DNA from: Hyphomicrobiales bacterium
GTDB taxonomy: Bacteria; Pseudomonadota; Alphaproteobacteria; Rhizobiales; Rhizobiaceae
Direction of reading: 5' to 3'
DNA length: 64,000 nucleotides
Assembly (NCBI GenBank): GCA_900471515.1
Contig: UCFC01000004.1
Location: 62,001-126,000, forward strand
Shown here: piece after piece, positions 32,916 to 34,413 of the stretch
Layout of the letters: every line of letters starts with the position of its first letter
How positions within the stretch are numbered: the stretch's first letter is position 1
The notes under the pieces: model-generated
Database searches by the model: none
Told to the model about the DNA's origin: nothing
What the model saw: only the letters and a program-made list of their open reading frames with translations
Position numbers and translations under genes: made by a program

Positions 32916-33794
32916 GTGAGTGAAATCCGCCTTTACGTGACGACGACCGAAAAGCAGGCCGAGCAGATTCTCGACCTGATGTCGGAGGTTTTCGGCGAAG
33001 AAGACTTCGCCATCGCCACGACCGAAATCGACGAGAAGAAGGATATCTGGGAAGCTTCGGTCTATATGATGACCGCGGATGAAGCCGATGTGCGCGCCCG
33101 TGTCGAGGCGGCGCTGCGGCTTTCCTTTCCCGAAGCGACGCTCGAGCGTGAAGTCATTCCCGATATCGACTGGGTCTCGAAGTCGCTCGAGGGCCTGAAG
33201 CCTGTCAGGGCAGGGCGCTTCCTCGTTCACGGCTCGCACGACCGCGACAAGGTCCGCACCGGCGATATCGCCATCGAGATCGATGCCGGCCAGGCTTTCG
33301 GCACCGGCCATCACGGCACGACGGCCGGCTGCCTGGAGGTGATCGACCGGGTGCTGAGGGCGCGCACGGTGCGCAATGCGCTCGATCTCGGCACGGGCAG
33401 CGGGGTGCTGGCGATTGCCGTGCGCAAGCTTCGCAACATTCCGGTTCTGGCAACCGATATCGACCCGATCGCCGTGCGCGTGGCGGCCGAGAACGTGCGC
33501 CGCAACGGCATTACCAGCGGCATCAGCACGGTGACGGCGCCGGGTTTCCATTCGACCGCCTTTTCCGAACACGGGCCGTTCGATCTCATCATCGCCAATA
33601 TCCTGGCGCGGCCGCTGATCAAGATGGCGCCGCAGCTCGTCGCCCACCTGGCGCCGGGCGGATCGGTGATCCTGTCGGGCATCCTTGCCGAGCAGCGCTG
33701 GAAGGTGCTGGCGGCCTATAACGGCGCCAAGCTGCGCCATGTGCGCACGATCTGGCGCAACGGCTGGGTGACGATCCATCTCGATCGCCCGTAA
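32916..33794 (+). CDS. prmA: ribosomal protein L11 methyltransferase
   Basis: A 292-residue SAM-dependent methyltransferase. The N-terminal part binds L11, and the C-terminal Rossmann domain has motif I ALDLGTGSGVLAIA and the NILARPL motif. AFGTGHHGTT is the family hallmark. Translation starts at GTG 32916 (sequence begins MSEIRLYVT). It is convergent with the small-RNA transcript on the opposite strand, whose terminator starts 22 bp past its stop. Confidence 0.95.
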   Translation: MSEIRLYVTTTEKQAEQILDLMSEVFGEEDFAIATTEIDEKKDIWEASVYMMTADEADVRARVEAALRLSFPEATLEREVIPDIDWVSKSLEGLKPVRAGRFLVHGSHDRDKVRTGDIAIEIDAGQAFGTGHHGTTAGCLEVIDRVLRARTVRNALDLGTGSGVLAIAVRKLRNIPVLATDIDPIAVRVAAENVRRNGITSGISTVTAPGFHSTAFSEHGPFDLIIANILARPLIKMAPQLVAHLAPGGSVILSGILAEQRWKVLAAYNGAKLRHVRTIWRNGWVTIHLDRP

Positions 33795-33815
33795 TCGCGG
33801 GGAATCCGGAGCAAG

Positions 33816-33842
33816 AAAAAAGGCGGTGCCAGTGGCACCGCC
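33816..33842 (-). terminator. terminator of the minus-strand sRNA/small ORF transcript
   Basis: GGCGGTGCC (33822-33830) and GGCACCGCC (33834-33842) make a perfect 9-bp stem with a 3-base loop. Six A residues (33816-33821) on the + strand become a U tract on the minus strand. There is no T run on the other side, so its direction is minus, away from prmA. Confidence 0.88.
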
Positions 33843-33957
33843 CTGGACCGGCATTCAATCCGGTCATGCCCGCGAGCCGAAGGAGGAGATGCTCAAGCGG
33901 GCTCTACTTCATTCCGATAGGCCGGTCCGGTGGAGGGAGGAGGAACGGACCGGCTTC
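33816..33957 (-). ncRNA. cuckoo-like small RNA with two anti-Shine-Dalgarno loops
   Basis: Read on the minus strand, a 9-bp stem (GCCGGTCCG with CGGACCGGC, 33921-33929/33946-33954) closes a 16-base loop containing CCTCCTCCC. Next a 10-bp stem with a two-base bulge (33868-33877 with 33891-33902) closes a loop with CTCCTCC. A short stem (33846-33851/33860-33865) and the terminator follow. Two GC-rich stem-loops displaying CCUCCUCCC-type loops is the definition I know for cuckoo RNAs of alphaproteobacteria, thought to interact with Shine-Dalgarno-like sequences. It may be processed from the mRNA of the small ORF directly upstream. Confidence 0.75.
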
Positions 33958-33961
33958 AAGC

Positions 33962-34135: not shown

Positions 34136-34413
34136 TTCAAGAAATCCTTGTGTTGTGGTTCGTCCCGAACCGTTCGATGCGCTCTATATAGCTATTCCGG
34201 CATGCGGCGGCAGAGGGTTTGTTTCATTGCAGCCATGCGCGCAATGCATGAAGCGTGCCAGTTTCCCACATCGAGACACATTTCTGCCAAATTATTGGGC
34301 GGCCGGCGCCATCAAGGCGCCTTGCGTCGCTTTTTCTCCCCATTGACTGAAAAATCGCTAACATGGCGGCTATCCCATTAACCGGATTCGTTTCATTCAT
34401 TCGGGTTTTCAGC

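Follow-up and report, generated by a model that had tools for sequence, protein, structure and literature searches.

Paired anti-Shine-Dalgarno hairpins behind a small gene in Rhizobium: a candidate cuckoo-type RNA at the 3′ end of an mRNA

In the window (the whole stretch of 64,000 nucleotides that was analysed), the minus strand between two genes that are taken, by the look of their proteins, to be prmA and pepP carries a small open reading frame (ORF), two adjacent hairpins with anti-Shine-Dalgarno loops and an intrinsic terminator. It is likely that these parts belong to a small-protein mRNA controlled by the regulator LsrB/VtlR, whose 3′ end is a cuckoo-type small RNA (sRNA) pairing with the Shine-Dalgarno (SD) sequences of several mRNAs. 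The original prediction of a cuckoo-type RNA is partly supported, namely by the paired hairpins, the terminator, the conservation of the unit and the compensatory changes in its stems; the partial motif of the second loop and the position of the unit at the 3′ end of an ORF fit it less well.

Structure of the locus

The prmA gene occupies positions 32916-33794 of the plus strand and ends 21 nt from the end of the hairpin unit, and pepP (aminopeptidase P) starts on the plus strand at about 34414. The ORF and the hairpins lie between them on the opposite strand to both. The features are as follows:

34232-34250, minus strand: LysR-type box (C)ATGC-N7-GCATGGC, roughly -70 to -56 relative to the predicted start; candidate LsrB/VtlR site
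34186-34191, minus strand: -10-like CTATAT, with the predicted start about 7 nt downstream
34135-33962, minus strand: ORF of 57 codons (MTASLSRFAYSS...GAPSYAF), with an AAGGA ribosome-binding site before the start
33954-33921, minus strand: hairpin SL1, 9-bp stem, loop UUCCUCCUCCCUCCAC holding the exact motif CCUCCUCCC
33902-33868, minus strand: hairpin SL2, stem of 6+4 bp with a 2-nt bulge, loop AUCUCCUCCUUCG
33865-33846, minus strand: hairpin SL3, 6-bp stem without the motif
33842-33816, minus strand: intrinsic terminator, GC-rich stem of 9-11 bp at 33842-33822, UUUUUU ending at 33816

The two consecutive minus-strand stems described earlier, one of 9 bp and one of 10 bp with a bulge, were confirmed by the sequence and by folding, as was the exact motif CCUCCUCCC in the loop UUCCUCCUCCCUCCAC of SL1. 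CCTCC-rich sequences had been claimed for both loops, and both have them, but SL2 carries CUCCUCC, a partial motif and not CCUCCUCCC. The terminator with a U tract closes the unit as described (stem 33842-33822, six U to 33816); SL3 is absent from the earlier description. The gap between the genes, described earlier as normally left blank in annotation, is not empty, as the 57-codon ORF ends 7 nt ahead of SL1. The minimum free energy (MFE) of the unit at 33957-33816 on the minus strand is -65.8 kcal/mol (z = -4.38), and none of 200 dinucleotide shuffles folded as low.

Both strands of the window contain 42 CTCCTC sites, four of them inside a hairpin loop by a loose criterion, and SL1 and SL2 account for two of these four. 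Single loop-borne sites are not enriched in the window, since 40 Markov copies of it had a mean of 5.3 per copy against four in the real sequence. A neighbouring pair of CTCCTC loops, 25-80 nt apart, appeared once among the 40 copies. The number of adjacent motif-bearing hairpins, two, lies within the range of two to four that defines cuckoo RNAs.

The Rfam scan of the window revealed no family above its cut-off. With loose limits, the best matches were suhB (RF00519; 19.7 bits, cut-off 41) and ar14 (RF02344; 16.3 bits at the locus and 14.3 in a genome search, gathering cut-off 58.8), and both candidates were rejected. The stem pattern of SL2 occurs once in the genome, with no second copy. Antisense action on prmA was also put aside, because the 21-nt gap leaves no overlap without read-through. 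In the scanned plus-strand stretch 33795-33960 no prmA terminator was found; a read-through transcript of prmA would carry GGAGGAGG loops complementary to those of the sRNA and might act as a sponge.

Relatives of the ORF with 61-100% identity were found at 70 loci in Rhizobium and Rhizobiales records; the locus of R. johnstonii 3841 is in NC_008380.1:3442688-3445858. The differences from the 63 homologues of the same length fall on codon positions 1, 2 and 3 in numbers of 348, 221 and 746, and by this conservation the ORF is judged to be coding. The predicted 5′ untranslated region (34150-34185, minus strand) has a GGTTCG...CGAACC stem before the ribosome-binding site, which is conserved in the Rhizobium set of loci described below.

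Conservation and history of the hairpins and the small gene

A query of 341 bases covering the unit matched, wholly or partly, in all 90 genomes of the same genus, own genome included, and outside the genus in three of 60 genomes, there in stretches of 22-28 bases only. Further comparison used the Rhizobium set of 71 loci, comprising the window and 70 loci found via the protein and not via the RNA. At least two separate C-rich clusters follow the ORF in all 71 loci, and the exact CCTCCTCCC is present in 42 and missing from 29. In plain MFE folds of the whole unit, CTCCTC lies in two hairpin loops in 46 loci and in a single loop in 24; the one remaining locus has it in no hairpin loop.

Covariation was assessed on 48 loci of the 71, hand-picked for spread and aligned with MAFFT, with the structure taken from the window. 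This structure pairs 89.4% of the cells, compared with 87.7% in shuffles and 33-45% when the partner was slid. Twelve pairs show double changes against 4.6 in shuffles, with none of 500 shuffles as high. Further pair types did not exceed the shuffles in the same alignment (29 against 27.0; 94 of 500 as high), and sliding the partner by +1 gave 44 cells changed on both sides against 26 for the real structure. Pairing is 100% in SL2, 99.8% in the terminator, 81.3% in SL3 and 72.4% in SL1, where the low value is partly due to one-column shifts in the alignment. In the SL2 stem, six of the ten pairs have changed on both sides and four never vary. Compensatory changes in the stems of relatives, whose lack had been named as counting against the original prediction, are present.

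When 92 loci were folded one by one, the first cluster lay in a hairpin loop in all 92 and the second in 89. These counts err on the high side, since of many fold windows the best one was retained and since 21 of the 92 loci were included for carrying the motif. Two or three motif clusters are present in 89 of the 92 loci examined; in three loci (L152, L247 and L319) the loop of the terminator is itself a third motif loop, which is also seen in ar14. The stem sequence of SL1 varies strongly among loci, and that of SL2 is nearly invariant. The SL2 stem CCCGC-(UU/UC)-GAGC...GCUC-GCGGG, 2-nt bulge included, has hardly changed between several genera (seen in L152, L153, L164, L197, L306, L314 and L318) and differs in L247 and L319. 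It is possible that this stem is a protein site.

The small gene is distributed far more widely. A profile search extended with distant homologues placed its family in 179 of 297 genomes and 77 of 109 genera of the bacterial family, and a broader profile in 101 of 249 genomes and 52 of 111 genera of the order; some of these matches are short or weak, and misses may be technical because scoring was limited to the best 22-26 candidates of each genome. Roughly one of the listed places was taken from each genus, which gave 85 loci with 88 ORFs (L193 and L253 denote a single place). prmA downstream and pepP upstream, both opposite, flank 79 of the 88 ORFs. A hairpin with a motif loop stands 3′ of the ORF in 11 of the 88; L177, L178 and L180 have one CCTCCC each outside a loop, and the rest have neither a hairpin with the motif nor CCTCCC behind the ORF. 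This suggests that the small gene predates the hairpins. At L250 and L254 it is present in two tandem copies, the second more diverged.

A quick tree was built from PrmA and PepP fragments of 85 of 94 loci, those with sufficient sequence of both proteins; among the loci missing from it are L164 and L183, which bear hairpins. The 18 hairpin-bearing rows of the tree need two changes against 16.6 in shuffles, and all of them, with the twice-taken place L193/L253, make up a set of 20 with an SH-aLRT support of 98%. The tree fits one gain of the hairpins and a loss, though the counts alone do not separate gain from loss.

Inspection of the prmA side in 30 genomes, 22 of them without an earlier protein match, revealed hairpins and ORF apart from each other. 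Six of the seven same-genus loci beside prmA have the hairpins and a diverged ORF. The seventh, L310, has another ORF, by its look presumably an IS200-type transposase, and the unit match of this genome is on another contig. Of the 23 remaining loci, four (L314, L315, L318 and L319) have hairpins, and the pair is absent from the other 19. In L314, L315 and L318, each from one genome of a different genus, the ORF is absent or decayed and the box, the hairpins and the terminator are kept; a scripted search at the usual spacing did not recover a CTATAT-like -10 in these three. L313 lacks the hairpin pair and has the same genus code as L161, L164 and L251, so further losses have occurred. The history slightly favoured by these data is the birth of an sRNA in a 3′ untranslated region: the hairpins would have been gained once, in an ancestor of the clade that includes Rhizobium, and the ORF would later have decayed in some descendants, in which an independent sRNA with the inherited LysR-type promoter would remain.

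Hairpins at the 3′ end are frequent protectors of mRNAs, and those of the unit begin 7 nt past the stop codon. They could act in cis only, stabilising the 3′ end of the mRNA, or could repress it by pairing of UCCU loops with its own AAGGA, since UCCUU of loop 2 is complementary to the AAGGA before the ORF; there would then be no trans-acting sRNA. This explanation is improbable, given that L314, L315 and L318 have kept the hairpins and the promoter box with the ORF absent or decayed, and that stability alone would not require C-rich loops to be conserved on top of changing SL1 stems.

Promoter region and small protein

The upstream element has the form ATGC-N7-GCATRGCTCCCATGA, with CTATAT 43-44 nt after its ATGC-N7-GCAT part (43 in the window). 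The box is present in 70 of the 71 loci of the Rhizobium set and in 93 of 159 loci overall, and its spacing to the -10 is 43-44 nt in 84 of the 93 loci that have it. The -10 in the 71 upstream regions reads CTATATA in 58 and TTATAAG or TTATATA in ten, and none was found in three. Box and spaced -10 together precede 21 of the 88 family ORFs, compared with a mean of 0.125 and a maximum of two in 200 mononucleotide shuffles, the box pattern having been refined after seeing the loci where it is counted. The extended promoter pattern is not unique in the window (two matches with up to two mismatches, 0.39 expected). As a simple scan found no E. coli-type sigma-70 promoter at the unit, the start of transcription is a prediction only.

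All 71 loci of the Rhizobium set also match a relaxed sigma-54-like pattern, so that the motif could be read as a sigma-54 promoter, TGGCACG-N4-ATGC, and the unit as controlled by RpoN and nitrogen instead of by a LysR-type regulator. This reading was put aside as very unlikely, because the aligned distant homologues lack the TGGCACG half, and many of them keep ATGC-N7-GCAT and its spacing to the -10.

In the own genome, a like box precedes a DUF1127 gene and an ar14 locus. The core of the box matches 42 times genome-wide, the copy in the window included, and two of the other 41 matches were recognised at DUF1127/ar14 loci; this is not an independent result, as the pattern was written after seeing the boxes there. 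The same genome has, beside tandem suhB/AbcR-type RNAs, a gene that looks like a LysR-type one and, by its place, is presumably LsrB. LsrB was reported to activate nfeR1 and to bind its promoter between -72 and -57 (PMC10746234). VtlR is the same regulator in Agrobacterium, where it was found to bind three promoters, those of abcR1, vrsA and atu1667, the last being a small-protein gene (PMC7486931). The box in the window was compared by position with the LsrB site known from nfeR1, and the two agree; the published VtlR box is given there as a figure only. By this analogy, the unit is probably controlled by LsrB/VtlR, which would bind at the box.

Neither Pfam nor NCBIfam has a match for the 57-aa protein of the window. 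Distant members of its family read like DUF1127, with what is taken to be the motif of that domain (LDD..L..LG.SREELR). An hhalign comparison of 26 family members with the seven DUF1127 proteins that the own genome encodes gave a probability of 94.5 and an E-value of 7.6e-8 over 33 columns; the profile-profile score was 36.3, and none of 100 column shuffles scored above 13.3. The Pfam DUF1127 model matches two of the 26 members, with an E-value of 0.06 at best, and the Rhizobium rows alone reach a probability of 2.2 with the DUF1127 profile. On sequence grounds, the small protein seems to be remotely related to DUF1127 as a family; since a match is missing when the Rhizobium rows are used by themselves, the relation holds at the family level and the branch of Rhizobium has drifted away. 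A plain DUF1127 label for the protein was rejected, as Pfam and NCBIfam are silent on it and say little for its relatives. One of ten proteins matched aCcr1 with 15.8 bits (against 60); this was put down to chance, and a literature search on aCcr1 returned nothing.

The own genome has four ar14 loci over the cut-off and seven DUF1127 genes. The loci noted there (L109, L110, L111, L112, L165 and L166) are on contigs C33, C39, C54 and C57, and on C57 and C54 ar14 loci and DUF1127 genes are close together. At L165, four CTCCTC motifs, seen at the level of sequence, lie 3′ of a DUF1127 gene.

Known RNA families and proposed function

The cuckoo RNA family was reportedly described by Reinkensmeier and Giegerich in 2015 with a thermodynamic matcher. 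The open literature as searched does not mention the locus; the 2015 paper is outside that search and possibly lists it. The name prmA does not occur in the literature texts searched for that word. With the cuckoo RNAs SmelA075/SmelA099 of Sinorhizobium meliloti the unit shares adjacent hairpins with CCUCCUCCC-type loops and the occurrence of several such loci per genome (PMC3927594, PMC4504443). It differs by the CUCCUCC of loop 2 and by following an ORF. Cuckoo RNAs were described as having 'similar loop motifs' (PMC3927594) and have variable stems, whereas in the unit SL1 is variable and the SL2 stem nearly invariant.

Like the unit, NfeR1, of the ar14 family, has anti-Shine-Dalgarno loops and, in its promoter, a LysR-type site in the region of -70 to -56 (PMC10746234), but ar14 RNAs have three hairpins with an identical motif. 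The AbcR/MmgR RNAs (suhB) are likewise alphaproteobacterial and have CU-rich anti-Shine-Dalgarno stretches (PMC7143759), with a structure that differs from that of the unit; AbcR1 was reported to be activated by VtlR in Agrobacterium (PMC7486931).

The order of parts is that of ccaF1-CcsR1-4 of Rhodobacter sphaeroides, a locus of the CIN1 type, in which short DUF1127 genes occur with CcsR-like RNAs: a small-protein gene is followed by RNA and one terminator (PMC10253847). RNase E processing of a single precursor is a further mark of this type. The CcsR RNAs were reported there to modulate C1 metabolism and stress defence (PMC10253847). The Rhodobacter locus has four CcsR RNAs, a DUF1127 protein and an RpoHI/RpoHII promoter, in contrast to one two-hairpin unit, a protein not recognised as DUF1127 and a LysR-type box in the window. 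If the likeness extended to function, the locus would be a dual-function one, its small protein binding its own hairpins and aiding their maturation as CcaF1 does for CcsR. The family-level relation to DUF1127 (hhalign 94.5, E 7.6e-8; score 36.3 against at most 13.3) agrees with this idea, which is nevertheless doubtful: Pfam and NCBIfam do not recognise the protein, the Pfam model finds two of 26 members at a best E-value of 0.06, the Rhizobium rows alone fail the DUF1127 profile (probability 2.2), and RNA binding by DUF1127 proteins is itself disputed (PMC12501420).

The locus is called here a cuckoo-type RNA and is not filed as ar14 or CcsR. In the favoured reading, that of an LsrB/VtlR-controlled small-protein mRNA ending in this RNA, there would be one minus-strand transcription unit between prmA and pepP, about 360 nt long from the predicted start to the terminator. 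The promoter at about 34180 would be switched on by a LysR-type activator, probably LsrB/VtlR, and the mRNA would encode the 57-aa small protein, its ORF being translated. The 3′ end, either within the mRNA or cleaved near the stop codon to an RNA of about 140-150 nt, would present the anti-Shine-Dalgarno loops. These may base-pair with several mRNAs at their SD regions and reduce the translation of these mRNAs, in the manner reported for NfeR1, the loops of which silence ntrB and two transporter mRNAs (PMC10746234). Two actions had been proposed for the locus, sequestration of SD sequences and titration of ribosomes. The analysis gave no support to titration, and the NfeR1 literature (PMC10746234) speaks rather for a masking of SD sequences in target mRNAs.

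With this finding, a symbiont genus gains a likely anti-Shine-Dalgarno regulator, accompanied by a small protein and by a likely activator. The host genome already has its ar14 loci, and the new unit would be placed in the probable LsrB/VtlR circuit. As the ORF with the hairpins, the ORF alone and the hairpins alone occur in different genomes, natural comparisons are available, which may show how coding mRNAs yield sRNAs and what role small DUF1127-like proteins have for adjoining anti-Shine-Dalgarno RNAs.
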